64,000 bases of DNA from IMG/VR virus record IMGVR_UViG_3300012147_000001, positions 1 through 64,000 of that record. One strand, 5' to 3'. The notes under the pieces are model-generated. The model saw only the letters and a list, made by a program, of their open reading frames with translations, was not told where the DNA came from and ran no database searches. How positions within the stretch are numbered: the stretch's first letter is position 1; each line of letters opens with the position of its first letter. Source of the DNA: a virus. Positions 1 through 41,786 of the stretch are shown piece by piece. Position numbers and translations under genes: made by a program.

Positions 1-75
1 AAAGTACGTGCAGATGAAGCTTTAGTTAGAGAATCACAAGCTGCTTTAGGACAACAAAACGCTAATCGTAGATAG
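1..75 (+). CDS. 3' end of an unidentified late gene
   Basis: An open frame enters from the left edge and ends with TAG at 73-75, giving 24 residues rich in Ala, Gln and charged residues. It lies in the late operon directly upstream of the virion RNA polymerase gene, the position of gp51 in phage N4. Too little is present to assign a function. Confidence 0.6.
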   Translation, partial: KVRADEALVRESQAALGQQNANRR

Positions 76-105
76 TCGATGACTATGTAAAATGTAATGT
101 GATAT

Positions 106-141
106 GCTCTACCTAATAATAATTTAGGTAGAGCTTTTTTT
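106..141 (+). terminator. Strong intrinsic terminator abutting the virion RNA polymerase start codon
   Basis: A perfect 11-bp stem (106-116 with 124-134), a 7-nt loop and seven T residues (135-141) form a textbook Rho-independent terminator. The last T is followed directly by the ATG of the next gene. The only AGG/GAG that could act as a Shine-Dalgarno lies inside the 3' arm of the stem. The element can therefore both reduce read-through into the polymerase gene and mask its ribosome site. Confidence 0.85.
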
Positions 142-3100: not shown

Positions 3101-6100
3101 AAGATGTTGCAACAGATGTTGTAGAAGAAGCTGCAAATTTTGTTCGAGAAATTAGAGATATTGATAACAGTAATTTACCATTAACTCAAAAAGGTAATAG
3201 AAATGCTCAAAATCAACAAAGGAATACAGAAACGCAGACGACTCCAGAACAAACAACGTTGCAAGAGGAAAATCAAGAAAATACTAATAGCGAACCAACG
3301 GGAAGAAGAATTAATCCAGACAACTTAAGAACTAATTCAGTAGGTGAAACTATTGAAATTGAAGGAGACCCTGTTAATTCTAGTTATTTAACTAACAAAA
3401 TAATGAACAGTCGTATTGGTAAATGGTTTAGAGCCAAAAAGAAAGTATCTGCCTTTAACAAAGTAGACAACTTTTTTGATAAATACGACACAATAGAAGG
3501 TCTTAATGATGAAGACAGAGTTAATCTTGCACGAGTAAAAGTATTTGTGCAAAAGTTTGCTGACACTGTAGATAGTGTCGTAGGTATGAAACCTGAAGCA
3601 GGTTTACAAACTCACTTGGCTCAATTGTTAATGAACGAAGGTAGTACAACGTATAAAGACGGACTAGACCCTAATGTTATGAATGCTATCGCATTAGGTG
3701 CATTTAATTGGATTGGTTCTCGTGGTAGACAGTCACTTACAAGAACTGAAAATGATATTAGAGAAACAGTTGGTGTAGATGACACAGTAACTATTCCACA
3801 AGATGTTGCTAATTTTTATATAGATAAAGGTATTCCATCGTTTTTAGTAGAAGCTGAAATGGGTAAATACATTGCTGATGTACTTGGATTATCAATTGAC
3901 CCAAATTCAGAAGCTCCTGTAGAAGCCAGAGAGAAGCTAGAATTATCATTAGGTGGAATGGCATACCTAACATTAGAAAAAATGGGTATGATTGAAACCA
4001 GAGATGATAAAGGTAAATATCTATACACTACTGCACCTAAACAAGATGCTATAGATGGTTTTTACCAAGAAAAAACTTCAAAAGGTGCTTTAACAGATTT
4101 TAGACATACTAAACTAGTTGAAAATAATCGAACAGCAAGTCTTGAAAACTTGTTTACTGCATTAGCAGAGCCATTTGAAAAAATGCTTGAAATTGATTAT
4201 CAATTTAAACAACCTTCTTTTGAGCCAAAAACAAAACCTCCTACCATGAATAATAGAGGTAATACTAAACTCAGTAATTCACAAAAAGAAGGTATAGATA
4301 AATACAACAAACGTAAATGGAAAATGAATCCATTGTTTGTTGAGATGGTAGAAATTCTTGGTGATGATGTATTACGTGATGTTATGGGTTATGACTTTTC
4401 ATTAATAAAAAATACAAAAACAGGAAAAGTATCAAGTAACAAAACACATGCTGTAAACCTAGCTGGTGCAGAAGGTAAAAACAACGGTATTGATAGAAGT
4501 TTAAATAATCTTAAAAACTTTGTTAATCACCTTACTGAAAAAGGTTTAGGTTACGTAAATCAAACTTTTCATTTTAATACAGTAGTTGATAGTACGGGTC
4601 GTAACCGTATGGATAACAAACTTATTAATCCACAAACAGATAAGCTTCATCGTAATTCTATGATTATGGAAGGATGGGATTACAGTGTTAATAATATAGA
4701 AAGTAGAAACTTTTTTAAATTAGCAGTAGCTCAAGCATTTGGTGTGTCTATTGATAAATTATCAATGGAAGAGTCTTTAAAACAGGTAAATAATTTATTT
4801 GATTCTAATACTGTTGAAGGTAGATTAGTTCAAAATGCTGTACAAGCTATTAGAAAATTACGCAGTACTGAAGCCAAAACTGAAGATGAAATAGCTAAAT
4901 ATCGTAAAGCAATTCAAACTGTCGTTAATCCTAAAAAATATGGATACCATAGTGCAGACGTAGGTGGAGAAGGAGCACATACTTTAGCTGGTTTAATGGC
5001 TATGGTTGATTATTCAGCAACAAAACCTTTTAATGCTAATTTATCGTTAGAGATTGATGGTTTAACTAATGGAACTGCATTAGCACTTTTAATGTTTGCT
5101 CCAAGTAATCAAGCAGACCAAGATACTTGGTTAGCACGTACTGGTATATTCACCAATGGAATGACTTCTTTTGCTCAATACAAAGAGCAAATACAAGGTG
5201 CTCAAGACAACTACGAAGCATTAGCTAGTAGATTAAGTGATAACTTAACAAAAGGTATTGAAGGACAATTATTTGATAATTTTGGTAAGCAATTACTTAA
5301 TCAAGATTTAATAAAAGTAATAAGACCTATTGGTAACATATTAGCTAAACTAAATAATAAAAATATGGTTAAGTTTGGTTTAGTACGTTCTGTTGCTAAA
5401 AACCCAGTAATGATAGGTAATTACGGAGCAGGTGTTACTAAAGTAGTGCAAGAATTTAGTCAGGAAGTTATTAACAATTTTTACGACACAATAGAAACTG
5501 CTGTTGCTGATAATGATTTTGCAAAGTTAGTACAACTTAATGATGAATTAAGTAGAGTAGTTTTGGGTGATAACTACAAAGGAAATGGTGTTGGTTTAAT
5601 TTACATTGATGGTAATGGAAATCCTCGTGGTAAAAATTGGAAACAAGCTGCATTAAATTTTACATTAAATTCTGAAGACAGTAATAAATTTAGACTACAA
5701 GTGACAAGCACTTTTGGTGCAATTATGCGTTTGTCTATGGAACAAGAATTTGGTGAAATAAGAGAAGAACGTAGTAAGTTTAATACTTTAATAAATGCAC
5801 ATAATGCTTTATTTAGAGCTGCTTACGACACTGAAGTTGAAAAAGCGATAGCTGAAAATTCTGAAAGTATTTTAACGTTTAAAAAGAAACAAGAAATACT
5901 TAAAAAAATTGCTAAATTTAAACCTGAAATTAAACATGTTCAATCAGAAGATATGTTTGACCAAATGCCAGTAACAACTGAAATTAGAGTTGATAGTAGA
6001 AATGCTGCTCAAGCAGTAGAAGTTCCAAAAGTTAGCGATAGTTTGCCTAATTCTCCTATTGGAAATAACTTAAGAACTTATGCACAAACACAAACTTTTA

Positions 6101-9100
6101 CAAGCAATGGAGCTAAAGGAACTGTTTACGCAGTGCAGTCAACTGAGTCTGGAATAGTAATTGAAGTACTTAAACAAGATGCACCAGTTTTACAAGTTTA
6201 TGATGGTTTATTGGTTAATCCAAATAACGCAATTGAAGTAGCTCAAATAGCTAACAAAGCAACAATAGATTTAAGTAAAAAAGGTAACTTATATAAAGAT
6301 TTAGCTAACAGTGTGCAACGTGCTATTAGAGGTTTACCTAATGAATATTTAGAACTAGCTAATATTTATCTTAAAGATGAAATTAATCATGATTCTAAAA
6401 AAGAAACTCCAATGGATGTTGTTAAAAATGCTTTAATTAATACTGTAGCTATACAACAATCTAGAGCAGATTTATACGGAAGAATAAAAGCTGTTAATCA
6501 ATATGCATTTCCTAGTGGTGAACATAGTTTATTAAATGAAACTGAAGAAACTAATCAAAGTTTAGTAAATGATTTTGTTTTAAATATTAAAAACAAAAAT
6601 GGTGTATTAAATTCATCACCAGAAGGTGAAACACCTAATGGCATTGAAAAATTAAATACTAAACTAAATCTTAATAATATTGTTGGTTTACTTAATAGTG
6701 CAAGAAGCTCTAGTACTACTAAATCAAGTAATGGTCATTTTGCTTATTTGCAGGAGCTTCTAGGAGACACATACAACGGTTTTATTACTGAGCTTAAGCT
6801 TAAGGTATCTGAATCAAATGCACCTAACAGCGGTGTATACGATTTCACTGCTAAAGAAATTAGAACCAACGTAAACACTGGTCATAAACAAAGCCCTACT
6901 GAAATGGGTCAAGATGAAATCTTAGCTCACGAAGTTGTACATAGTATTACTAAAAATGCTTTAGAAACTAATAATATATTAGCAAACGAAATACGTAAGC
7001 TAATGAAACAAGCTAAAGCTAAAATTACCCCAAAAGATTTTGAAGTAAATGGTTTAAGTTCAGAAGAAGCTTTAATAGCTTATAACTACATATTTGAAAA
7101 CCCGAATAAAACTATTAAAGGTTACTCTGTTGGTGTACACGAGTTTGTTGCTTATGGTTTAACAAATGAACACTTTATGAATTTGTTAAGAGATAAAGTA
7201 GATACTAATTACAATCCTAATGGAGTAGAGAGTACTGTTGTTGGTAAGCTAAGAGCATTTTATAGCAAAATGGTTAATATGTTTTCTGACAAATTACGTA
7301 AAACAAATAATTTAACAGCAGATAAAAAATTACTAGAACTTACTAGACAGTTAATGCAAAACGAATTAAATGCTAAACAAAGAATAGTAAATACCAGTTT
7401 AGTAGAGAAATTTGAAGAAGGCACTAAAACAGCATTATTGTCTTATATTCAGCGTCCAATATTAGCATTACTTAATGCTGACGTATTAACTAGAAATACT
7501 GATAATAAGTTATTAACTGTGGCTCAAGGTCTTGCAGCAATAGGTCGTATAACTGCTACAGGTCAAGTTGGGGAATTTAGAAAACAAATAAACAAAGTAA
7601 TGAATAGACTTGGTGCGACTGAAAATAATTTATTAATTGCTTTAATGAATGAAATTCAAGGTAGAACTGACGAAAATAATCGTTTTTACGAGCTTGCAAG
7701 AGAAGCACGTAAGCTTATTGACCAAGCAAGAGCAGATACTAGCGTTAATATAAAACGACACGTTAGAAAGCAATTTGGAAAAGAATTAACCAGCGATGAA
7801 GAAAAATCTTTAACAAGAGTATTACTTAAAACTGATTTGTCATCTCTTACTCAAAAGTATGGTGCTGAGGATATTCATAAATTAATTACAGACACTGATT
7901 TTTTAACAAGAGAAATTAAAAAAACGCATCAAGAATTAAGACAGTTTGGTAATAATACAAGATGGTACATTAGACAAGCTCAGTCACTTGGTCATTTTAT
8001 GGTTAATAATCAATTTACTGAAAGTTTTGGTTTAATGAATGCACATGCTATATCAAGAAAAGTTGGTCTTAATAGTTCAGTACCCACTAATGCAAGCCAA
8101 GCAGAACCAATAATAGATAGATTAGCTACTTTAACTGCATTACGTGTTACTGCTAAAGAATATCCAGCAGACATGAAAAGAGCAGTTACTGTGTTTGAAG
8201 AAGAATTTACACGTAGTAGTGACCCAGAAGAAAATGGAATCATATTTACTTTAATGAATCATGTTGATTATAAAAAACGAGCATCAGAACAATTATTTAA
8301 TAATAATCCAATGCTTGTTGAAAAAGGTTACATAAGAGAGATTTATAATCCTAATAAAAGTTTTAAAGTAGCTCCAACAGCAGACATCGAATTAATGGGT
8401 AAAGATGGTTTTACTGCTGTAGGTACAGTAGGTAAAGATGCATCTGACCCTAATACAACTTCAATGACTATGTATGTGACTGATATGGGTGCATTAGCTC
8501 CTTGGCAAGCTGGAGGTGTTTCTATCGCAGGTATGACTAATAAAGGTACTAAGTATTTTAATACTGTGGCTCAAACTACAATACCTAATTCACATAAAAC
8601 AGCAGTAAATGCTACAAATACTATGAAACAAAATAAATTAAAAGATGCTCAAAATATTTATAATGGAACAGCAAAAACACAAGCTAAAAATTCATTAGTA
8701 CCTTTGCTTGATGACCAAGGTAACGTAAGTGATTATAGATATGTGATGCAAGAAAAAACTAAAGATTTGTTAGATGTTAATATTCAATTAAGTGATGTAT
8801 TAGGTGCTATGGAAGGAAATATGAAATCTAAAGTGGCTGGTACTGAAATTAACAGTAAGTATGTGGAAGCTCTTGTAGAAGACTATAACACCAACTTTAA
8901 AACAGACCCTGAAAGATATGTGTTTGTTGGATTAAATTCTGACAGAGCAGACTTGGAAGAACTGTATAAAATGATGCCATCAGATATGAGAGCACAAATT
9001 AAAGCAGCAACAGGACAAGATGGTATTTTTGTAAAACAAGATATTGTTAAGTTAGTTTTTGGACAACGTAAGTTTAGTATTCCTCATTATTTTAGAGAAA

Positions 9101-10095
9101 AACAACGTTTAAATGATTTAAATGGTAAGTTAGGTAATATGTATTTATCAAAAGTATATAGAACTCTTGGCTCACCTAAAGCAGCTCATATAGAACAAAG
9201 CTGGCAAGAAGTTATTTCATTTGTAAAAGACACTATTGTTGTAAAAAGCATAGTAACTTTATTAGCAAACATTGCTAGTAACAATGTGTTGTTATGGTCT
9301 ATGGGTGTTGGATTTAAAGACATTCTTGTTCAACAAGAAAGAGCTGTTAAATTTGCTGAAAAGTATCAAGAAGATAAAGAAAAAATTGATGAAATTAGTA
9401 GAAACATTGTTGTAAATCAAAACAAAAAAGGTAATAGAACAGCTTTAATAGCAAAGCTTCAAGCAGAAAAAACTAAATTAGAAGATGAATTAATAACTAA
9501 TCCTGTACATGATTTAATTGAAGCAGGTGTTTATCAATCTATTATTGAAGATATAGATATGCTTGATGATGAATTTTCTTACTCAACTAAACTAGAAGAT
9601 TGGTTAGAGCCTGTAACAAGTAAAATACCTAAACAACTTAAAACTGTTGGTAATACTGTATTAATAAATCAAGGTACTCCTCTTTATGAGTTACTAAGAC
9701 GTAGTACACAGTTATCTGATTTTGCAGCTAGGTTTGCATTACATGAACACAACAAAAATAAAGGAATGGATGCTAAAGATTCAATTAACATGGTAGTAGA
9801 TACTTTTATTGATTACGATTTACCAACACATAAAGGTATTGAATATTTAAATAGTATGGGTGGTATTTTCTTTACTAAATTCTTTTTAAGAATACAAAAA
9901 GTAATATTAAATACTTTAGTAAACTCACCAGCAAGGTTTATTGGATTATATGAATTACAAGATTTGTTTGGTGGTTTATCTGACATTACTGATTCTTTTA
10001 TACTTACTAAAGACATTGGTTTTATGTTTAAAGACCCGATTGAAGCTTTAAGTGGATATTTTGATACACACCCATTAATACAATTACTTAAATAA
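142..10095 (+). CDS. Virion-encapsidated DNA-dependent RNA polymerase (N4 gp50-like), 3,317 aa
   Basis: Giant single-subunit RNA polymerase of the N4 vRNAP type, packaged in the capsid and injected with the DNA to transcribe early genes. The T7-like core is visible: the T/DxxGR motif at 1483-1487, motif A Asp1639 in LEIDGLTNG, motif B Arg1749, Lys1753 and Tyr1761-Gly1762 with exactly the T7 spacing, and motif C Asp2021 in QVYDGL (Tyr in place of the usual His). Spacing between these residues is close to that in N4 vRNAP. The core is flanked by about 1,470 N-terminal residues, including a Ser/Thr/Glu/Asn-rich linker around 810-1090, and about 1,300 C-terminal residues. The C-terminal part carries HEVVH (2263-2267) and a later HEF (2333-2335), resembling a zincin metalloprotease site. 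It is the last gene of the late operon and converges on the replication genes. ATG 142 is chosen because it directly follows a terminator. Confidence 0.93.
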   Translation: MALSDDKLQKLQIQGGLATNRVTGTTRTQRIEEEAARKRLRLGDGKAANVDDYVTLNPFASQEEIQNFGLERNYLNQKQELLKTLEARRFEQHNPYDFSELAGDTANSIAKGVLAAGEVAYGAGNLLSKYNVPALLYNNLIAEEDDEQISLDNLTGGFSQNFAESRNILDGMLQSENQTADMERIERYGAEFTAKSDEQTKAEIEAGNSEWFAEAKNIGRKALDTAERYLRNPAVVAQQVVEEVPSLITAGAIGKVAATGVGKQAAAKQATKRELNEVTDLLKKQDNKAVVDRYLKSKAGKEKVGRAAEAAGVTQAAVGEAMSNAIQTKGEILGLTEQALAEGSPAYNEMRASGLSHEQARMRLSEQAFDIVVGLTLPLAAVSSKVSGAGKLEGTLFLKGSEVSKPFLKVAGATAIEGLEEAFQGGTGQAVQNFATRETADSTQSLTEGVGEAIGESAVVGAGTGVAITGITTAPEIFSATAKDVKKLANQADKGIKLAANSIAKATDPKVVKDAIKSGNASEILNTESKTYNPEDAIKVLQSQQFFPVKEENESDTDFGTRSQRYIEELVTHGQKYALRVMEKNKDLDPTSKEAIKNMSDLKRTTQIVNGLKAQVGIKDFRGAIAALKTDPENAAAVKEILLGSMQSVTTSPISVEQAQEIIDSGELTENEIKKAKIFIKSKNNQSEVSNAIKNGDKGRIGLNQHTELITSTVDQGDKKTARTLLNNLSKFNKSQNDKAIKTRQAFDKVRNSDNPNIAINISGDTWKFNITKKTPESFINNIETDNQAVTETFKSLRDYAVSVFIEGKNNNVRAENTGSTESTTTDSTRSQSTDGVSNRNETEIQPDNRVSRESGVFVEQDGTGTVERTANDNALSEGEQAQTTATQEDSAGEPEANTLTPFNKIMGESGNNDSVNQLQNSIQEFETLDNFESVETLEEEEALEAQYITNIENVIESVKNVNTDNYGQPIKDMQADIISQLELGMQDVATDVVEEAANFVREIRDIDNSNLPLTQKGNRNAQNQQRNTETQTTPEQTTLQEENQENTNSEPTGRRINPDNLRTNSVGETIEIEGDPVNSSYLTNKIMNSRIGKWFRAKKKVSAFNKVDNFFDKYDTIEGLNDEDRVNLARVKVFVQKFADTVDSVVGMKPEAGLQTHLAQLLMNEGSTTYKDGLDPNVMNAIALGAFNWIGSRGRQSLTRTENDIRETVGVDDTVTIPQDVANFYIDKGIPSFLVEAEMGKYIADVLGLSIDPNSEAPVEAREKLELSLGGMAYLTLEKMGMIETRDDKGKYLYTTAPKQDAIDGFYQEKTSKGALTDFRHTKLVENNRTASLENLFTALAEPFEKMLEIDYQFKQPSFEPKTKPPTMNNRGNTKLSNSQKEGIDKYNKRKWKMNPLFVEMVEILGDDVLRDVMGYDFSLIKNTKTGKVSSNKTHAVNLAGAEGKNNGIDRSLNNLKNFVNHLTEKGLGYVNQTFHFNTVVDSTGRNRMDNKLINPQTDKLHRNSMIMEGWDYSVNNIESRNFFKLAVAQAFGVSIDKLSMEESLKQVNNLFDSNTVEGRLVQNAVQAIRKLRSTEAKTEDEIAKYRKAIQTVVNPKKYGYHSADVGGEGAHTLAGLMAMVDYSATKPFNANLSLEIDGLTNGTALALLMFAPSNQADQDTWLARTGIFTNGMTSFAQYKEQIQGAQDNYEALASRLSDNLTKGIEGQLFDNFGKQLLNQDLIKVIRPIGNILAKLNNKNMVKFGLVRSVAKNPVMIGNYGAGVTKVVQEFSQEVINNFYDTIETAVADNDFAKLVQLNDELSRVVLGDNYKGNGVGLIYIDGNGNPRGKNWKQAALNFTLNSEDSNKFRLQVTSTFGAIMRLSMEQEFGEIREERSKFNTLINAHNALFRAAYDTEVEKAIAENSESILTFKKKQEILKKIAKFKPEIKHVQSEDMFDQMPVTTEIRVDSRNAAQAVEVPKVSDSLPNSPIGNNLRTYAQTQTFTSNGAKGTVYAVQSTESGIVIEVLKQDAPVLQVYDGLLVNPNNAIEVAQIANKATIDLSKKGNLYKDLANSVQRAIRGLPNEYLELANIYLKDEINHDSKKETPMDVVKNALINTVAIQQSRADLYGRIKAVNQYAFPSGEHSLLNETEETNQSLVNDFVLNIKNKNGVLNSSPEGETPNGIEKLNTKLNLNNIVGLLNSARSSSTTKSSNGHFAYLQELLGDTYNGFITELKLKVSESNAPNSGVYDFTAKEIRTNVNTGHKQSPTEMGQDEILAHEVVHSITKNALETNNILANEIRKLMKQAKAKITPKDFEVNGLSSEEALIAYNYIFENPNKTIKGYSVGVHEFVAYGLTNEHFMNLLRDKVDTNYNPNGVESTVVGKLRAFYSKMVNMFSDKLRKTNNLTADKKLLELTRQLMQNELNAKQRIVNTSLVEKFEEGTKTALLSYIQRPILALLNADVLTRNTDNKLLTVAQGLAAIGRITATGQVGEFRKQINKVMNRLGATENNLLIALMNEIQGRTDENNRFYELAREARKLIDQARADTSVNIKRHVRKQFGKELTSDEEKSLTRVLLKTDLSSLTQKYGAEDIHKLITDTDFLTREIKKTHQELRQFGNNTRWYIRQAQSLGHFMVNNQFTESFGLMNAHAISRKVGLNSSVPTNASQAEPIIDRLATLTALRVTAKEYPADMKRAVTVFEEEFTRSSDPEENGIIFTLMNHVDYKKRASEQLFNNNPMLVEKGYIREIYNPNKSFKVAPTADIELMGKDGFTAVGTVGKDASDPNTTSMTMYVTDMGALAPWQAGGVSIAGMTNKGTKYFNTVAQTTIPNSHKTAVNATNTMKQNKLKDAQNIYNGTAKTQAKNSLVPLLDDQGNVSDYRYVMQEKTKDLLDVNIQLSDVLGAMEGNMKSKVAGTEINSKYVEALVEDYNTNFKTDPERYVFVGLNSDRADLEELYKMMPSDMRAQIKAATGQDGIFVKQDIVKLVFGQRKFSIPHYFREKQRLNDLNGKLGNMYLSKVYRTLGSPKAAHIEQSWQEVISFVKDTIVVKSIVTLLANIASNNVLLWSMGVGFKDILVQQERAVKFAEKYQEDKEKIDEISRNIVVNQNKKGNRTALIAKLQAEKTKLEDELITNPVHDLIEAGVYQSIIEDIDMLDDEFSYSTKLEDWLEPVTSKIPKQLKTVGNTVLINQGTPLYELLRRSTQLSDFAARFALHEHNKNKGMDAKDSINMVVDTFIDYDLPTHKGIEYLNSMGGIFFTKFFLRIQKVILNTLVNSPARFIGLYELQDLFGGLSDITDSFILTKDIGFMFKDPIEALSGYFDTHPLIQLLK

Positions 10096-30610: not shown

Positions 30611-30634
30611 AATTTATTCCTTTAGACGCAAAAA

Positions 30635-30652
30635 AGCCACCCGAAGGTGGCT
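30635..30652 (-). terminator. Strong UUCG-loop terminator after thyX
   Basis: A minus-strand 7-bp GC-rich stem (30646-30652 with 30635-30641) closed by a TTCG tetraloop and followed by a run of T residues. It ends the nucleotide metabolism operon. Confidence 0.88.
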
Positions 30653-30709
30653 ATAACTTGGCAGAAGTTTTAAACAGTTGGAAAGGAATTAACCAACAAC
30701 TCAATCATA

Positions 30710-30724
30710 ATCGCTGAAAGCGAT
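30710..30724 (-). promoter_or_regulatory. Possible fifth virion-RNAP-type promoter hairpin
   Basis: A 6-bp stem ATCGCT/AGCGAT with a GAA triloop (plus strand) right behind the thyX stop codon. Triloop and closing T-A pair equal those of the four upstream hairpins, and the minus-strand flank TTATGAT resembles their TTARTGRY, one base shorter. It would serve the zinc-ribbon/rIIA genes but sits ahead of the terminator at 30635-30652, so function is uncertain. Confidence 0.4.
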
Positions 30725-34422: not shown

Positions 34423-35430
34423 TTATGACAAAGAATAGTTAGATTCACGAATTGATTGAGCCAAGTCTTGTGAGTACTTGTTAAATACTCCGTTAGTTCC
34501 TGCAATCTGATTTAATATATTCTGAATTACATTTGATTCAGCTAATTTAGCTAACTCATCTGCATATCCAATACGAATATCTTCTATATGGTTTGGTGAA
34601 GCCCAAAACGAATCATGAATAGTAGTCATTTCATATCCGCGAACATGTGCTCTACGATACAACTGACGCACAATATAAGCATCTAAACTGTGAACTACAT
34701 TAGCTGGTAAAGATAAATCAAACTCTTTAGCCATTTGCTCAGATGTTCTGAAAGTGAATGTAGCTTTATTTAATTCAGCTATTTCAACTTTTTTATCTAC
34801 CTTTCCCATTACTGGTACATACGCTGTATGACCATCAGGAAGCGTCCAAGTATAATCAAGAGCTTCTGAGTCCTGTAAGGTTTGAATATCCAACAACAGC
34901 CTGTAAGCACCTTTTAAACCAACTTGAAGACATTTATTAAATGCTTCTAATTCGGAAGTACCTTTACCAAACAACAATTCAGGTTGTTTAGTACTGTTGT
35001 AAAAAGCTGTCATTATTGGTTTCTTAAGCATGTCACGAGTTGTATTACAGCCATGAATTACATTCATATCATTGGAAATATCAAAGTAAATGTCGTTACG
35101 TTTGTTGTTATCAATGAGATTCACTTTAATAGCTGAGTCTTTACATCCAGTAACTGCTGACATTATTTGTATTCCAGAAGCTGTTGCATCTAAATTACAC
35201 ATAAAACCGACATTATTACCTTTTAATATTTCGTTATGTGCATTAATAGCTTTGGCTAAAAGCACAGATTCATCTGTACATTCCTCTTTAGCAAAAGCTA
35301 ACTGGTCTTTAAAAGACAATTTAACAAAGTTATCAGACCACGATAAACGTTCATCCCATGTTAATTTGTCCATTCCATTGGCGTTAGCCATACTAATCAA
35401 TAAATATTCATAAGGTGTAAACTTCTGCAT
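34423..35430 (-). CDS. RNAPII catalytic subunit, C-terminal part of T7-like RNA polymerase (N4 gp16-like)
   Basis: A 335-residue protein holding all three palm/finger motifs of single-subunit RNA polymerases: motif A CNLDATASGIQ (Asp81), motif B TRDMLKKPIMTAFYN with Arg132, Lys136 and Tyr144 at exact T7 spacing (Asn follows Tyr where T7 has Gly), and motif C TIHDSF (His272, Asp273). The N-terminal part of the enzyme is coded separately (36145-37077), as in N4 RNAPII, which transcribes middle genes with an ssDNA-binding cofactor. Two small genes lie between the subunits here. Confidence 0.93.
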   Translation of the reverse strand: MQKFTPYEYLLISMANANGMDKLTWDERLSWSDNFVKLSFKDQLAFAKEECTDESVLLAKAINAHNEILKGNNVGFMCNLDATASGIQIMSAVTGCKDSAIKVNLIDNNKRNDIYFDISNDMNVIHGCNTTRDMLKKPIMTAFYNSTKQPELLFGKGTSELEAFNKCLQVGLKGAYRLLLDIQTLQDSEALDYTWTLPDGHTAYVPVMGKVDKKVEIAELNKATFTFRTSEQMAKEFDLSLPANVVHSLDAYIVRQLYRRAHVRGYEMTTIHDSFWASPNHIEDIRIGYADELAKLAESNVIQNILNQIAGTNGVFNKYSQDLAQSIRESNYSLS

Positions 35431-36144: not shown

Positions 36145-37077
36145 TTAACTACGTTCTATAGCAATATGTTCTTTATTTGCTAAATTAATTAATGCTTTTT
36201 TATACTCAGTTGATTGAATGTTGACATGATAACCTTGGCTGTACATACGACCACGTTTATCAAATCTCCAAGAAAACCAAAACTCATTACCTTGTTGTAT
36301 CAACAGCTCATAAACCTTTTTACTGCTGTTTTTCAACAGTTGAAAGTTCTTAACTTTTTCTACAGTATCCAACTCTTTTGTTGGGGTTTCTTCGTAGTTA
36401 TTAAGTATAAAAGTATCTAATTCAAATTTAACAGAATTAGCTATATTTAAAGCATCTAAACCTAGTGGCATATTGTGATGGTTATGAGACTTTAGTACTA
36501 CTGATTCAGCTATTGGATTGATATATCCAGAGCTAGTATTACTTTCTATCTTGTTAGGTGGACAAATCATTGGTGGTAAATACATAGTATCTGTAATGTA
36601 TTGTTCTGTATCTAAGTCCAACTTCCACCTGCTTTTAATCATTAAAGAACCAGTTTCACTAGTCTTAGCAGATATAATGTCATACAAATCACTATAAGCA
36701 CCTAAAGCTATTAACTCACTTGCAGTACGCACAGCATCCATGTGGTTAGAATATCCCTCAAGTCTACGTGCTACATACTCTACCATTCCATGAATAGGTA
36801 CAGGATTACCTTGGCTTGTTTTCATAGCACCAACAGATATATAAGTCATAACATCTTCAGTATTGTTAAATTCACCTAACGTAAAACACCTCACAGCTTT
36901 ACTGTACCAATAGTTTCTGTACTTGGCTTTGTAGTCTAGCACTTGAGCTTTTAATAGCTTTAAAGTTGGTGCTAGGTCTTCACATTTACTTAAATCTTTC
37001 CAAATACGAGTATTAATTTCACGTTTAGCGTACTTATCCTCGTTTACTATTTGGCTCAATACTTTAATTTGATTCAT
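36145..37077 (-). CDS. RNAPII N-terminal subunit (N4 gp15-like)
   Basis: A 310-residue protein equivalent to the N-terminal and promoter-contacting part of T7-like RNA polymerases. Near its end it has the T/DxxGR element FDKRGRMYSQ (273-277) and KKALI.LANKE, which in T7 RNA polymerase directly precede motif A. The protein ends there, and motif A begins the other subunit, so the split is at the same place as in N4 RNAPII. First gene after terminator 37116-37133. Confidence 0.9.
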   Translation of the reverse strand: MNQIKVLSQIVNEDKYAKREINTRIWKDLSKCEDLAPTLKLLKAQVLDYKAKYRNYWYSKAVRCFTLGEFNNTEDVMTYISVGAMKTSQGNPVPIHGMVEYVARRLEGYSNHMDAVRTASELIALGAYSDLYDIISAKTSETGSLMIKSRWKLDLDTEQYITDTMYLPPMICPPNKIESNTSSGYINPIAESVVLKSHNHHNMPLGLDALNIANSVKFELDTFILNNYEETPTKELDTVEKVKNFQLLKNSSKKVYELLIQQGNEFWFSWRFDKRGRMYSQGYHVNIQSTEYKKALINLANKEHIAIERS

Positions 37078-37137: not shown

Positions 37138-37410
37138 TTAGAAAGAGATGTCTGAACCATCGTCTTTTGTAGCAACACGAATAGTGATTTTACCTTTAAC
37201 TTCAATTTCACCATTTTTAGATGCTTTTGCCTTGTTAACAAGACTACGTTGAAGCTTACTACCTTCTTCATACAAAGGATTGAATGCTTGATAACGATGT
37301 GCAACACCATTACTATCAACAAAATCAATGTTTACATAAGCATCACATTGCTTTTTGTTAGGTTTAGCCGAATAACCACCATTATTTGCATTTTCAACTT
37401 GTTGAGCCAT
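37138..37410 (-). CDS. Early 90-aa protein directly upstream of RNAPII
   Basis: A beta-rich small protein (YVNIDFVDSNGVAHRYQAF, PLYEEGSKLQRSLVNKA, KITIRVATKDDGSDISF). Comparable small genes precede RNAPII in N4-like phages. AAGGATTC.. GGAGG sits at the ribosome site. It is the first gene behind early promoter hairpin 37469-37481. Function unknown. Confidence 0.7.
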   Translation of the reverse strand: MAQQVENANNGGYSAKPNKKQCDAYVNIDFVDSNGVAHRYQAFNPLYEEGSKLQRSLVNKAKASKNGEIEVKGKITIRVATKDDGSDISF

Positions 37411-37468
37411 TTTTTGAATCCTCCAAGGATATTAAGACACGAGCAAAATTGCTCTAATATGTCATTAA

Positions 37469-37481
37469 GGCGTGAAACGCC
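37469..37481 (-). promoter_or_regulatory. Early promoter hairpin for virion RNAP (P-A)
   Basis: Plus (template) strand GGCGT-GAA-ACGCC: a 5-bp stem and 3-base loop. Minus strand continues TTAATGAC after the stem. One of four hairpins with different stems but the same GAA loop, closing T-A pair and TTARTG flank. N4 virion RNA polymerase recognises exactly this shape. It lies 59 bases before the 90-aa gene. A GAGCAA/TTGCTC hairpin starts the predicted transcript. Confidence 0.75.
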
Positions 37482-37539
37482 AAGAACTTGGAATGTTACG
37501 CAGATATATAATTCGAAGAGAGAATGTGTTTGTGTAAGA

Positions 37540-37569
37540 GTTTTAAGAACCGATAAAGGTTCTTAAAAC
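37540..37569 (-). terminator. Terminator after the SLOG gene
   Basis: Perfect 12-bp inverted repeat (37540-37551 with 37558-37569), 6-base loop, T-rich toward the minus-strand 3' side. It ends the upstream early unit just before promoter hairpin 37469-37481. Confidence 0.75.
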
Positions 37570-37579
37570 ATTAACGTAA

Positions 37580-38071
37580 CTAGTAATTCAGACTATTCAA
37601 TTTAGCAATTGATTCCCTAATACTTTGCTCACTTTCATGAGTAAACATAATTACTCCACTGTAATCATATACAAGTACAGGTTTATCCTTTTTAATCATT
37701 GCCACTATCATGTTTTTAGTTCCACTACTTCCATTCCATACAGCAATTAATTTATCAGCAATATCAGACATTAATCTATTACGATTAAAACCTGCTAGTT
37801 TGTTATATGGTTTACCATTACGTATTGCCATTTTTACTGGATTATCCGCGGTACTACAAATGTCATCCCACTTAGCTGGAAACTCATCCACACCTACTTC
37901 AAAAGAAATTAAAACATTACTAAAAGTAGTATCAGCACCTATAGCTCTACCACTAATTCCAGTCAACTCATGAGCTGGTGGAAGAAAGTGATTACTGTAT
38001 GCATTATGAATAATTCCTTCAGCTATTTCTTTATTATAAAAATCTCTACCACCTGCAAATATTACTTTCAT
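37580..38071 (-). CDS. SLOG-domain (YspA/DUF2493-like) protein
   Basis: A 163-residue Rossmann-like protein starting MKVIFAGGRDF, with TGISGRAIGADTTFSNV and AGFNRNRLMSDIADKLIAVWNGSSGTKNMI: the pattern of SLOG superfamily proteins (YspA, DUF2493), which bind nucleotide-derived ligands. SLOG domains act as sensors in Thoeris and other NAD/nucleotide-signal defences; a phage copy in the early region could bind or hydrolyse such a signal. The ligand is not evident. Confidence 0.82.
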   Translation of the reverse strand: MKVIFAGGRDFYNKEIAEGIIHNAYSNHFLPPAHELTGISGRAIGADTTFSNVLISFEVGVDEFPAKWDDICSTADNPVKMAIRNGKPYNKLAGFNRNRLMSDIADKLIAVWNGSSGTKNMIVAMIKKDKPVLVYDYSGVIMFTHESEQSIRESIAKLNSLNY

Positions 38072-38074
38072 AAA

Positions 38075-38464
38075 TTACTCCAATTGTTCTATTTCAGTAT
38101 AAATACCTGTTGTTTTAGCTAAACCAGTAACACTTTCAATTGAATGTTTTAAGTCCTGTAAATCAGGCCATTCATTGCAATCAATTCTATGGTAAGTAAT
38201 TGGTATCCAGCATTTCTTGTGCCAATCACAATGAAAAGGTAATAGCTTGATACCATTTACATCAGAGTACCAAAGCCCATCATTATTTATGTAAACAAAG
38301 AATGTTTTATTGACAGGTTTAGGTACACTAATTTCACCAACAACAAGTAAATGTTTATTATGCTGTGAATCAATATAATCAAAGTTCTTAATAGCAGATA
38401 TGTAACTAGAGTTAATCATAACGTTTGGAAGTTCAAGCACCTCCTGTATGTATTCTTGAATCAC
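38075..38464 (-). CDS. Hypothetical 129-aa protein
   Basis: Unrecognised. Aromatic-rich middle (YINNDGLWYSDVNGIKLLPF). Overlaps the 138-aa gene by 32 bases, and both proteins end in a similar TTGLY/TTGIY segment, so they may be distant duplicates. GGAGG precedes the start. Confidence 0.6.
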   Translation of the reverse strand: MIQEYIQEVLELPNVMINSSYISAIKNFDYIDSQHNKHLLVVGEISVPKPVNKTFFVYINNDGLWYSDVNGIKLLPFHCDWHKKCWIPITYHRIDCNEWPDLQDLKHSIESVTGLAKTTGIYTEIEQLE

Positions 38465-38849
38465 CGTACTCCACCTTATTTTCTAAATACAATCCAGTTG
38501 TATGAATTAAATCAAGCATGTTTAAAAGCTTGTTTCTAAGCATACTTAATTCAACATCTCTTTTAGCTTCATGAACACTACAACATGTAAATGCAAGACG
38601 AGATTGTAAATGGTTTCTACTATTCCAAGGAACAAACATTACATCGTTACCATTTGGATAGTAAAAACCTCTTGTATTGCAAACACCGTATTTTGTTGGA
38701 TGTCTCATTAATTTACCAAGATGTAAAACACCATTTTTAGCTTCTGCCATAAAACGACTGTTGTAATCAAACTCATAAAACTTTACAACGAAAACATTTG
38801 GACATTTATTAAGATTACCAACATATTGACTTATTAATGAACCTAACAT
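38433..38849 (-). CDS. Hypothetical 138-aa protein
   Basis: Unrecognised early protein, with RGFYYPNGNDVMFVPWNSRN and CCSVHEAKRDVE segments. See the neighbouring 129-aa gene for a possible weak relation. GAGG lies 7 bases before the ATG. Confidence 0.6.
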   Translation of the reverse strand: MLGSLISQYVGNLNKCPNVFVVKFYEFDYNSRFMAEAKNGVLHLGKLMRHPTKYGVCNTRGFYYPNGNDVMFVPWNSRNHLQSRLAFTCCSVHEAKRDVELSMLRNKLLNMLDLIHTTGLYLENKVEYGDSRIHTGGA

Positions 38850-38858
38850 TTTTACCTC

Positions 38859-39059
38859 TCAATCTATTAACGAACACTCGCCATTACTGGTTTGTATTCT
38901 GTTTCTTTCAACGCCATTATTAACATACTCAGTTACACATTCAGACTCTGCTTTATACAACTCAAAGTCATTTATAGCTGTAACAACAAATAAAACAAAC
39001 ACCATAAAAAACATGGCACACAACGCAAATGCTACTGTATTTCTAAATGAACGTTCCAT
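38859..39059 (-). CDS. Single-pass membrane protein, 66 aa
   Basis: Basic N-terminus, a transmembrane helix (about residues 8-28), then a soluble tail with two cysteines probably in the periplasm. Function unknown; early membrane proteins may modify the host envelope. Confidence 0.65.
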   Translation of the reverse strand: MERSFRNTVAFALCAMFFMVFVLFVVTAINDFELYKAESECVTEYVNNGVERNRIQTSNGECSLID

Positions 39060-39099
39060 AAATACTCTCCAACAGATAGCGAAGCTATCAATAATAAAA

Positions 39100-39117
39100 A
39101 AGGGCTAAAAAGCCCTT
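39100..39117 (-). terminator. Terminator overlapping the stop of the 51-aa gene
   Basis: A 7-bp stem AAGGGCT/AGCCCTT with a 4-base loop, followed on the minus strand by TTTTTATT. The 3' stem includes part of the stop codon region of the upstream gene. Confidence 0.75.
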
Positions 39118-39271
39118 AGAAATAACCTGATACTTGATGTGCATAAACACCTCTGTTAAATGCACTCTCAAATAACTGTCTTTGTACCAATGTATCTCTT
39201 AAACCATACTCTTTAAGAAACTCTTGATACTCTTTTTCTAGTATTTCATTTGGATGAAAGCTATCGCTCAT
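39116..39271 (-). CDS. Short 51-aa early protein
   Basis: A complete small frame with ATG at 39271, starting MSDSFHPNEILEKEY and ending VSGYF. It overlaps the macro-domain gene by 11 bases, GAGG lies upstream, and a terminator follows. Mostly helical; function unknown. Confidence 0.6.
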   Translation of the reverse strand: MSDSFHPNEILEKEYQEFLKEYGLRDTLVQRQLFESAFNRGVYAHQVSGYF

Positions 39272-39749
39272 AATTTAACCTCAGTTTATAAACATAAAGT
39301 GAAATTGTTGGAGGTAACATTTCAAACAATTCCAACATAACATTCCAATCACCACCAGCCAATCCACAACACATGAACTCAGGTACTGCAATTTTAGTAG
39401 GTCTCATTCGTCCACTGTTTACAACAGACTTCATCAAAGCTATTTGCATGAATGCTTTAGCTATTGCACCATAATGAACATTTCTATTAGCACCACCAAT
39501 ACTACTTTGACCAATGATATTTAACACACCATCATGTTCAATAACATTACCTAACGAACTTGCATTAAAGTTCCATAACTTACAGAACTTATAATACTTT
39601 TCGTATGCTTCAGGAAACTCATGCTTAACTTGCTTGGCAATGCCAGCTCCCATCAATCCTTTTGTATTACAGCAATGCATCAAGAAATCAACATTACCGT
39701 TTTTTAATGCTTTAACAGCATCACCTTCTACATAAGTAATATTTACCAT
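39261..39749 (-). CDS. Macro-domain protein (ADP-ribose binding)
   Basis: A 162-residue macro domain. VNITYVEGDAVKAL opens the fold; CNTKGLMGAGIAKQVKHEFPEAYEKY is the ligand-binding signature with its GxG loop; YGAIAKAFMQIAL and CGLAGGDW complete it. Macro domains bind or hydrolyse ADP-ribose, its derivatives or ADP-ribosylated targets. In an early phage gene this could recycle NAD products or reverse host ADP-ribosyl signals. Start 39749 (TGATG overlap with the previous stop) is chosen over GTG 39752. Confidence 0.88.
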   Translation of the reverse strand: MVNITYVEGDAVKALKNGNVDFLMHCCNTKGLMGAGIAKQVKHEFPEAYEKYYKFCKLWNFNASSLGNVIEHDGVLNIIGQSSIGGANRNVHYGAIAKAFMQIALMKSVVNSGRMRPTKIAVPEFMCCGLAGGDWNVMLELFEMLPPTISLYVYKLRLNYER

Positions 39750-39952
39750 CACAATATCTCCAATATCTCAATTTCACCATCCATAAAATACAGACCTTCT
39801 GGAGTATTTTTAGTAAACACATCAACACCAAAATCATCTTTAATAGTGGCTTCAACAATATCACCCACTGCTATCTTTTCATTAAAATAACCACCAGAAG
39901 TTAACAACTTAACTCTGGCTTTTTTACCTGCATTCTTTCTCAATCTAAACAT
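39749..39952 (-). CDS. Small 67-aa beta-rich protein
   Basis: The sequence (ARVKLLTSGGYFNEKIAVGDIVEATIKDD..DVF) looks like an SH3/KOW-like small barrel. It has no recognised family. Stop and next start overlap as TGATG. GAGGA ribosome site. The hairpin 39965-39983 lies just before it. Confidence 0.6.
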   Translation of the reverse strand: MFRLRKNAGKKARVKLLTSGGYFNEKIAVGDIVEATIKDDFGVDVFTKNTPEGLYFMDGEIEILEIL

Positions 39953-39964
39953 AAAAAATCCTCA

Positions 39965-39983
39965 ACTCCCTATTACAGGGAGT
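39965..39983 (-). terminator. Hairpin before the 67-aa gene
   Basis: A 7-bp stem ACTCCCT/AGGGAGT with a 5-base loop; six T residues follow on the minus strand after GAGGA. It may be a terminator or a hairpin shaping the ribosome site of the 67-aa gene. Confidence 0.55.
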
Positions 39984-39990
39984 ATTTAAT

Positions 39991-40116
39991 TTAATCTTCT
40001 AATAACTTAGCTCTATGAGCTAGTATTTCATTGTATTTCTTTTCAAGACGCTCACGCTCAACATCACTAATAGTCGAGCTATAAAGCTGACGTTCAATTA
40101 TTTCTAACATATCCAT
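39991..40116 (-). CDS. Short 41-aa early protein
   Basis: ATG at 40116, TAA at 39991-39993. A single charged helix (MDMLEIIERQLYSS...). TGGAG lies 6 bases before the start. It is directly behind promoter hairpin 40145-40157. Possibly an anti-host peptide; no family known. Confidence 0.55.
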   Translation of the reverse strand: MDMLEIIERQLYSSTISDVERERLEKKYNEILAHRAKLLED

Positions 40117-40144
40117 AGCTAACTCCAGTATTAATTATCATTAA

Positions 40145-40157
40145 GCGGTGAAACCGC
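40145..40157 (-). promoter_or_regulatory. Early promoter hairpin for virion RNAP (P-B)
   Basis: Template (plus) strand GCGGT-GAA-ACCGC, 5-bp stem and GAA loop; minus strand continues TTAATGAT. Same layout as 37469, 40771 and 41181. It lies 29 bases upstream of the 41-aa gene and just after terminator 40175-40190. Confidence 0.75.
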
Positions 40158-40174
40158 ATTGTGTTAAATAAAAA

Positions 40175-40190
40175 GAGAGCCGAAGCTCTC
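40175..40190 (-). terminator. UUCG-loop terminator after the 78-aa gene
   Basis: Minus-strand stem GAGAGC/GCTCTC with TTCG loop and TTTTTATTT tail, 5 bases after the 78-aa gene. Confidence 0.88.
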
Positions 40191-40194
40191 ATGT

Positions 40195-40431
40195 TTATAC
40201 TTTACAAAACCATCCATCTCTTTCAGGAACACAATAAATATGTATCATGTCTCCATCAGAGCAAATATGAAGGTTCATATTACCTTTGTCATCTTCATTA
40301 GAAGACACATATTCACCAGATTCTTGCTTGATTTTAATCAACCAACGAAAGAATCTATGCTTTGTTAATGAGTGCTTACACATGAAAGCATCACACCAAG
40401 TACTAACCTCTTCTGTTCTACTATTTCGCAT
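40195..40431 (-). CDS. Hypothetical 78-aa early protein
   Basis: Contains TWCDAFMCKHSLTKHRFFRWLIKIK and an acidic middle, ends in IYCVPERDGWFCKV. No family recognised. Its start overlaps the 49-aa gene by 11 bases. Confidence 0.6.
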   Translation of the reverse strand: MRNSRTEEVSTWCDAFMCKHSLTKHRFFRWLIKIKQESGEYVSSNEDDKGNMNLHICSDGDMIHIYCVPERDGWFCKV

Positions 40432-40570
40432 GTTTAATCTCCCACAACATACTTCTAAACACTAAATAAAAGTATTTAACTTTATTATTCATTATCCAAG
40501 ATTCAAAACTACTACCGTCACTACACTGACGATTAATAAATCTAATTATTACTGGCTTTTTATTAGACAT
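40421..40570 (-). CDS. Short 49-aa basic early protein
   Basis: ATG at 40570, TAG at 40421-40423, GAGAG upstream. Basic and aromatic (begins MSNKKPVIIRFINRQ). Overlap with the next gene supports it as real. Function unknown. Confidence 0.55.
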   Translation of the reverse strand: MSNKKPVIIRFINRQCSDGSSFESWIMNNKVKYFYLVFRSMLWEIKHAK

Positions 40571-40770
40571 AATGACTCTCATTATTAATTAAAAGACTAA
40601 AGGAATTTGGGTGCAATTGAGTAAGGGAGCACGAAGACCTTTTAGAGTTTTAACTAGACTCTTAACTAGCTTCTTTGAATTTGGTAGAAGCACCAAGCAT
40701 ACGTCTATACAACAGCTTAAACATATTGTTCGTCAACAACATGAGTACAGTGAATCACCACTGCCATTAA

Positions 40771-40783
40771 GCCCTGAAAGGGC
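40771..40783 (-). promoter_or_regulatory. Early promoter hairpin for virion RNAP (P-C)
   Basis: Template strand GCCCT-GAA-AGGGC; minus strand continues TTAATGGC. Belongs to the four-member family. Around 200 bases separate it from the next gene (49 aa), the longest leader of the set. Confidence 0.75.
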
Positions 40784-40899
40784 ATAGTACTGATTAGTAC
40801 AGTATAGTAACAAGTAAGCTCCATAATAAAGATTACTAAGGTTATAGGTCTCTTATAACTCTCTATCTTGAGGTGTTTGTGTTAAATGTGTTGAATTTA

Positions 40900-40923
40900 A
40901 AACCTACCGTTTAGGGTAGGTTT
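40900..40923 (-). terminator. Terminator after the first early gene
   Basis: 9-bp stem AAACCTACC/GGTAGGTTT, 6-base loop, on the minus strand followed by TTAAATTC. It lies 5 bases from the 70-aa gene. Confidence 0.75.
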
Positions 40924-40927
40924 AGTG

Positions 40928-41140
40928 CTAAGACTTCTTAGCTTGAGGTTTAACAGTGAGGGATTCCATTAGAGCTACAGCTTCTAATCTCTGCTCCTCA
41001 CGTAGAATGTCGATGGCGTCTTCTGCCATCTCAACAGTCTTACGAGTTGTACGTGCAGCAACTACAACAACGTTTAAGGTTTCATCAATAGCTACTGATG
41101 ACTTGTCTAATACGTTACCTATAAATGAGAATATGTTCAT
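40928..41140 (-). CDS. First early gene, 70-aa protein
   Basis: Mostly amphipathic helix (LNVVVVAARTTRKTVEMAEDAIDILREEQ) with a basic tail. First gene of the leftward block, 41 bases behind promoter hairpin 41181-41193, so likely the earliest protein made. CGGAG ribosome site. No family recognised. Confidence 0.65.
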   Translation of the reverse strand: MNIFSFIGNVLDKSSVAIDETLNVVVVAARTTRKTVEMAEDAIDILREEQRLEAVALMESLTVKPQAKKS

Positions 41141-41180
41141 GATTAACTCCGAAGTTAGAACAAGGCAAGATTGCCACTAA

Positions 41181-41193
41181 GGGCTGAAAGCCC
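41181..41193 (-). promoter_or_regulatory. Early promoter hairpin for virion RNAP (P-D), first in the early block
   Basis: Template strand GGGCT-GAA-AGCCC, extendable by one A-T pair; minus strand continues TTAGTGGC. The predicted transcript start is followed by a GGCAA/TTGCC hairpin. It is the outermost promoter of the leftward block, as expected for the first DNA injected. Confidence 0.77.
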
Positions 41194-41398
41194 TGTGTAT
41201 GTTGAAGGGGTGGCAGTACCAGTAGTAGGTAGGTAGTGCATAGGGGGGGTGTGTTTTTGTTTTTGGGTTTAAAACAGTAAGTATTGCATTCATACTCAAA
41301 AATGAAATTCCATCTAATAACTTAATTTTTCGTTATAAAACAATGACTTATGTTAGTAAGTAATAAATGTTAAAAAAATTATTATATATTAAGCTCTT

Positions 41399-41412
41399 AA
41401 TGGCTCTGTGTG
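41399..41412 (+). repeat. 14-base direct repeat, copy 1
   Basis: The word AATGGCTCTGTGTG occurs here and again exactly 60 bases downstream; both are preceded by A/T-rich DNA and followed by GT-rich DNA. Could be a protein binding site at an origin or genome end. Confidence 0.6.
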
Positions 41413-41458
41413 AGGTTTTAATTGTTAAGTAGGGTGAATGTGTGAGTGTAAGGTAGAT

Positions 41459-41472
41459 AATGGCTCTGTGTG
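41459..41472 (+). repeat. 14-base direct repeat, copy 2
   Basis: Second copy of AATGGCTCTGTGTG, 60 bases after the first. Confidence 0.6.
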
Positions 41473-41786
41473 TTGGTTTAGTTGGTTTAATGTTATTTAG
41501 TAAAGCTTGCGGTAGCCCTTTCCTGTAACGAAGTGAGTATAGGAGTAAAAACAAGCTGTGGTTGTTTTTCTCCACTGCACGAGTGGAGGGAAAGCAAGTG
41601 AGAAGCGGATTGACTAATGACGCTTTGAACGGTCTTCTAGGAATAGGAGCGGAGCGACTATGTCCGTGGTTTTCCCAGTCTTAACTAGCTAGTCATTTGA
41701 GCAGGTGTCCGAGCCATGCTAATATGGCGACTTGTATACAACTAGACAAAAGAGTATGACTCAGTTTAAATAATGCTATATAGTGG

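Follow-up and report, generated by a model that had tools for sequence, protein, structure and literature searches.

Four hairpins in the early region

We analyzed a 64,000-base window, bases 1-64000 of the 72,003-base virus record IMGVR_UViG_3300012147_000001, whose early region carries four short DNA hairpins that are by far best read as promoters of an injected virion RNA polymerase (vRNAP). All genes between 34.4 and 41.1 kb are leftward, and the hairpins sit between predicted minus-strand early genes. The plus strand is therefore the template, and it carries the GAA loop of every hairpin, as the template strand does in phage N4.

Hairpin 1 (GGGCT-GAA-AGCCC) occupies plus-strand positions 41181-41193, hairpin 2 (GCCCT-GAA-AGGGC) 40771-40783, hairpin 3 (GCGGT-GAA-ACCGC) 40145-40157 and hairpin 4 (GGCGT-GAA-ACGCC) 37469-37481. 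The flank is CACTAA at hairpin 1 (41175-41180) and CATTAA at the others (40765-40770, 40139-40144 and 37463-37468), so that the plus strand at every site reads CA(T/C)TAA, five-base arm, GAA, complementary arm. Past the hairpins at 37469, 40145, 40771 and 41181, the minus strand continues as TTAATGAC, TTAATGAT, TTAATGGC and TTAGTGGC, respectively. Leftward RNAs are predicted to start at 41175, 40765, 40139 and 37463 (hairpins 1 to 4).

The initial annotation had described four 5 bp stems with GAA loops and T-A closing pairs, in which the stem sequence changes and pairing is kept. Read directly, all four pair perfectly (20 of 20 cells). In this comparison of within-genome copies, three of the five stem pairs show base changes on both sides, every one still paired; the outermost pair is always G:C and the one that closes the loop always T:A. 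When the partner arm was shifted by one to three columns as a control, 30-50% of cells paired. The combination of a 5 bp stem, a GAA loop and at least four G+C occurs four times in the 72-kb record and in none of 100 dinucleotide-preserving shuffles, and 500 shuffles of the early region yielded no such 5 bp GAA hairpin. The motif CAYTAA-N5-GAA has eight copies in the window (shuffle mean 2.45, with eight never reached); the four in the early region are paired and the other four are unpaired.

Each hairpin lies upstream of the start codon of a minus-strand early gene, in agreement with the initial annotation, and a clear GGAG or GGAGG precedes the start codon at three of the four. The leader of hairpin 1 is 35 nucleotides long and ends at the first early gene (40928-41140, 70 amino acids, ATG at 41140). 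Hairpin 2 is followed after 183 nucleotides by ATG 40582, and hairpin 3 after 23 nucleotides by a gene for 41 amino acids (39991-40116, ATG at 40116, GGAG ribosome-binding site). Hairpin 4, the last of the series, is 53 nucleotides from a gene for 90 amino acids (37138-37410, ATG at 37410, GGAGG) and just above the minus-strand genes for the two subunits of RNAPII, the middle polymerase: subunit 1 (36145-37077; phrog_2166 N4-like RNA polymerase, E 7e-71) and subunit 2 (34423-35430; phrog_2051, E 1e-97).

An intrinsic terminator of the upstream unit (GAGAGCTTCGGCTCTC-TTTTTATT, 40175-40190, minus strand) lies 17 nucleotides before hairpin 3. Terminator-like minus-strand stems of 12 bp (37540-37569) and 9 bp (40900-40923) lie 58 nucleotides before hairpin 4 and 116 nucleotides before hairpin 2, and only hairpin 1, the first, has no such stem above it. 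Sigma-70-like sites are depleted between 36.0 and 42.2 kb (14 versus 28.9 in shuffles), and none was found above the four hairpins.

The virion RNA polymerase

The record encodes a vRNAP of 3317 amino acids (142-10095, plus strand; PHROG 2206, E 3e-126), whose size and N4 mini-vRNAP fold are those of the giant (~3,300-3,500 amino acid) polymerases of Schitoviridae. A profile of its core and 39 environmental relatives, built with no N4 row, hit structures of N4 mini-vRNAP with E 1e-80; we set aside as evidence a PDB profile search that included N4 itself. The core, taken from 3448-6363, was modeled with AlphaFold (mean pLDDT 84). The best structural match of the model is 3c3l, the N4 core with the P2 hairpin promoter (Z 28.1, 852 residues), and the N4 core with the P1 promoter, 3c2p, scores similarly (Z 27.7, 852 residues), with root mean square deviations of 3.5-3.6 for the two. 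The single-subunit RNA polymerase motifs (DxxGR/TxxGR, A, B and C) are present as DSTGR, EIDGLTNG, RSVAKNPVMIGNYG and VYDGL, aligned with N4. Cysteine is absent from the whole 3317-residue protein, as from the vRNAP of the related phage PT15-A5 (see below) and the 2,342 N4 residues examined.

The column of the N4 loop-stacking residue W129 (mini-vRNAP numbering; N4 W1126) is aromatic (F/Y/W) in 30 of 43 sequences. The window has Gly there, and Ala is found in L073, a contig whose vRNAP core is 40% identical to that of the window and which does not include the early region. We considered whether loss of this aromatic is tied to hairpin type and saw no simple relation, as another contig, L134, has Ser there and its hairpins are still C:G-closed. 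A change of D901 to N as the cause of T:A closure was also dropped, as the outcome varied with the alignment used.

Comparison with N4 and other schitoviruses

N4 promoters require a C:G loop-closing pair, -8G and +1C, and within the loop -10G, a purine at -11 and -12A, i.e., template 5′-GRA-3′ (PMC4496689). Like N4 P1-P3, the four window sites have a 5 bp stem and a 3-nucleotide loop on the template strand, within the N4 range of 5-7 bp, and the loop is GAA in all four. The initial annotation held that loop and flank differ from those of N4. This is incorrect: N4 P1, at position 90 of the N4 genome (NC_008720), has the oligonucleotide sequence GTTGC-GAA-GCAAC (PMC12633501), so the template loop 5′-GAA-3′ is identical, and the TTA flank is shared (P1 sense flank TTATGGA). 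The layout is also alike. In N4, P1 precedes gene 1, P2 gene 2 and P3 the RNAPII genes; both phages have three or four sites upstream of the RNAPII genes, and those of the window presumably lie close to a genome end, as in N4.

Among sequenced phages the nearest is Alteromonas phage vB_AemP_PT15-A5 (OP481051), which grows on Alteromonas mediterranea PT15, has the same gene order and is 66% identical in primase, 70% in portal and 65% in RNAPII subunit 1. The host of the window phage is therefore likely Alteromonas-like. PT15-A5 has sites in matching places (CATTAA-GGAGC-AAC-GCGAC, CATTAA-AGAGC-GAA-GCGAC and GATAA-GGAGC-GAA-GCGAT, at 28370, 34623 and 35108 of locus L011) that resemble those of the window in the template CATTAA or GATAA flank and, in two of three, the GAA loop. 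Unlike the window sites, they have C:G closure with two Watson-Crick pairs by the loop, followed by two G-A oppositions, and one loop is AAC. Two contain the very stable GCGAAGC core. At the RNAPII-proximal site, the 90-amino-acid gene of the window and the downstream gene of PT15-A5 are homologous (36% identity, E 2e-17), and both leaders have a short AGCA...TGCT stem. The initial annotation had made its reading depend on related phages keeping paired stems. The outcome in PT15-A5 goes half against that reading: the position, the TTAATG-type flank and usually GAA are kept, but not five Watson-Crick pairs.

Our survey took in several named phages and 42 environmental schitovirus contigs that include the early region. 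Among the 5 bp, C:G-closed hairpins with a GNA loop that lie between genes, the loop was on the template strand in 44 cases and on the other strand in 7; given this bias, the survey shows putative hairpin promoters with a GNA loop to be a trait of the schitovirus family. Outside the window, T:A-closed template-strand hairpins number four and are scattered, and in none of the other schitovirus early regions examined do they form a repeated family within one genome. For the distance from stem to G, N4 and Pollock have 4 nucleotides, a few contigs 5 and Pseudomonas-type phages 6, based on a list of 43 sites that includes some doubtful hairpins. Perfect 5 bp hairpins are few or lacking in several schitovirus genomes. 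Hairpin promoters have been predicted in LIT1/LUZ7 and Pectobacterium phage CB1 (PMC3715699, PMC6027278), with three predicted early sites that resemble those of the window in having 4-5 bp stems and 3-nucleotide loops. The Pseudomonas-type loci examined differ from the window in their C:G closure, TGNNC stems and 6-nucleotide spacing.

Predicted start sites and 5′-terminal stems

Setting the predicted RNA start at the first G below the stem of each site, we asked whether the RNA would begin with a 5′-terminal stem of at least 4 bp, accepting pairing of nucleotide 1 or 2. Such a stem was found at 24 of 41 schitovirus sites (mean 10.3 and maximum 17 in 300 shuffles), an excess that is somewhat inflated as some of the 41 sites are related copies. 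These sites include P1 and P2 of N4 (positions 90 and 557 of locus L013), for which the starts are known, and three of the four window sites (predicted starts 41175, 40765 and 37463), whose predicted RNAs thus resemble the P1 and P2 RNAs. A start shifted by +1 or +2 reduced the count to 12 or 6. A shift of -1 raised it to 27, as a pair at either of the first two nucleotides is enough for the test. This pattern supports the 5-nucleotide spacing predicted for the window. A 5′-terminal stem-loop may be a general feature of schitovirus early RNAs; it did not come up in the literature searched, which proves nothing.

A fifth hairpin downstream of thyX

A probable fifth hairpin (TCGCT-GAA-AGCGA, 30711-30723, plus strand) lies directly after the thyX stop codon and is likewise T:A-closed with a TTA flank; the initial annotation had overlooked it. 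It is held in a 30-base block, CCACTTGATTAAATCGCTTTCAGCGATTAT, that is identical in L164, a contig of the same phage type (primase 76% identical to that of the window), where the surrounding sequence has diverged. An intrinsic terminator is conserved downstream in the two genomes, after ~77 nucleotides in the window and ~90 in L164. The putative short RNA of the window would run from the hairpin to terminator GCCACCTTCGGGTGGCTTTTTT (30630-30706, minus strand, ~77 nucleotides), and its 5′ stem is paired in both genomes with different sequences. The site looks like a further member of this promoter class, from which a short RNA would be made, although it is possibly a thyX 3′ RNA element that resembles such a promoter. 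Nothing similar was found at the thyX position of PT15-A5. Rfam gave a weak, sub-threshold match to a small RNA family (22.6 bits versus a cut-off of 51.4), which is not evidence.

Interpretation of the hairpins

We consider it highly likely that the four hairpins are early promoters of the injected vRNAP, as the initial annotation had proposed. We base this on stems that covary and are absent from shuffles, and on the presence of an N4-type vRNAP, as judged by profile, model and lack of cysteine. The hairpins are on the template strand upstream of a Shine-Dalgarno sequence and ATG, three of them behind terminator-like stems, in a region with sigma-70-like sites below the shuffle level. The orthologous PT15-A5 site precedes a homologous gene, GNA hairpins favor the template strand across the family, and the predicted RNAs at three of four sites start with a 5′-terminal stem, like those of N4 P1 and P2. 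On the N4 model, supercoiling by host gyrase would cause each inverted repeat in the entering DNA to extrude as a hairpin. The vRNAP would bind the hairpin on the template (plus) strand and begin transcription at a set distance below it, through the leftward early genes that lead to the RNAPII subunits. From the gene layout only, we infer that the entering genome end is near the divergent gene blocks at ~41.3-41.8 kb.

Several observations weigh against this assignment. The closing pair (-9C:-13G in N4) is T:A at all four sites and at the fifth. The base at -8 is G, G, C and C at 37469, 40145, 40771 and 41181, so two of the four lack the N4 G. At the N4 spacing, 4 nucleotides below a 5 bp stem, the template base is A instead of +1C in all four; a template C is found one nucleotide further in each case, placing the predicted first G 5 nucleotides below the stem. 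The N4 contact residues cannot be mapped with confidence onto the window vRNAP, as the columns of K114, R119, D901 and R904 align unstably. The PT15-A5 sites lack five Watson-Crick pairs and form no stable hairpin by standard DNA energies, for which reason either G-A pairs hold the stem there or pairing is less important in that phage.

By this comparison the four hairpins fall outside the strict N4 definition, yet very probably work in the same way. That definition also includes extrusion driven by supercoiling, activation by SSB, rifampicin-resistant starts and few copies near the genome end that enters first. As they break some of the N4 sequence rules, the polymerase probably reads them by a somewhat different code. 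The promoters would be a variant of the N4 kind, with the same stem length and GAA loop but T:A closure, a free -8 position and G at 5 nucleotides. The new promoter specificity raised in the initial annotation thus loses the basis given for it, loop and flank, and gains another in the closing pair, the lack of a fixed -8G and the extra spacer nucleotide. We tentatively entertain, at somewhat less than even chances, that this phage and its relatives share a distinct code (T:A-closed GAA, a longer ruler and no contact at -8) that extends to the thyX short RNA, and that the polymerase reading it lacks the loop-stacking aromatic.

It is rather unlikely that these are ordinary N4-type promoters in which closure, -8 and spacing have drifted neutrally with recognition unchanged. 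The loop and TTA flank do equal those of N4 P1, stem-to-G spacing varies across the family (4, 5 and 6 nucleotides), and the code may be loose, since many schitoviruses have few or no perfect 5 bp hairpins. However, T:A closure is fixed at five of five sites in the window and kept in L164, against 44 C:G and four scattered T:A hairpins elsewhere, and closing-pair mutants of N4 lose hairpin extrusion (PMC4496689).

Readings that dispense with the vRNAP fare worse. That the hairpins act as RNA, binding protein or stabilizing 5′ leaders of transcripts made by another polymerase, would suit their location between terminators and start codons and the 5 bp stem with UUC loop that the RNA would form. 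We regard it as improbable, as GNA triloops on the template strand are a known vRNAP target, sigma-70-like sites are depleted with none above the hairpins, the TTAATG flank is conserved at the place of the N4 start, and there is no Rfam match. Double-stranded operators, for a repressor or as RNAPII middle promoters, that are palindromic by happenstance seem more improbable still: the fixed flank and loop look like a binding site, but such an operator needs conserved half-sites, whereas here half-site bases vary freely and pairing alone is kept, and the middle or late region holds just one such hairpin. Intrinsic terminators or chance palindromes are scarcely credible. Although the stems are short and GC-rich and a scan called two of them terminator-like on the plus strand, there is no T-run in the gene direction, true terminators are found elsewhere and shuffles give no such hairpins.

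The vRNAP is the best-studied reader of an extruded DNA hairpin, and nearly all of its rules come from one phage. With hairpins and polymerase both naturally different, one can ask directly whether the closing pair, the -8 contact and the spacer ruler are each set by the DNA or by the enzyme. The 5′-terminal stem-loop, if confirmed across the family, would be a common design of early messages.

The genome and its relatives

The two ends of the 72,003-base record overlap, its final 123 bases being the same as window 1-123, so that it probably represents a closed assembly of ~71.9 kb. Besides the 3317-amino-acid vRNAP, it encodes an N4-type primase, portal, terminase, SSB and two RNAPII subunits, and with its length in the ~70-80 kb range it has the features that define Schitoviridae genomes. 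The window covers the greater part of this 72-kb schitovirus (N4-like) record.

We found no near DNA match to the window in the phage collection searched, and protein queries of one or two rows against viral contigs recovered no close relative with the early region. One contig search yielded L012/L164, which has the thyX site and stops short of the early region. GTDB genomes contained just two loci, both distant.

A direct repeat, TAATGGCTCTGTGTG, occurs at 41398-41424 and 41458-41484 of the window, in the divergent region that adjoins the early genes and faces the late genes.

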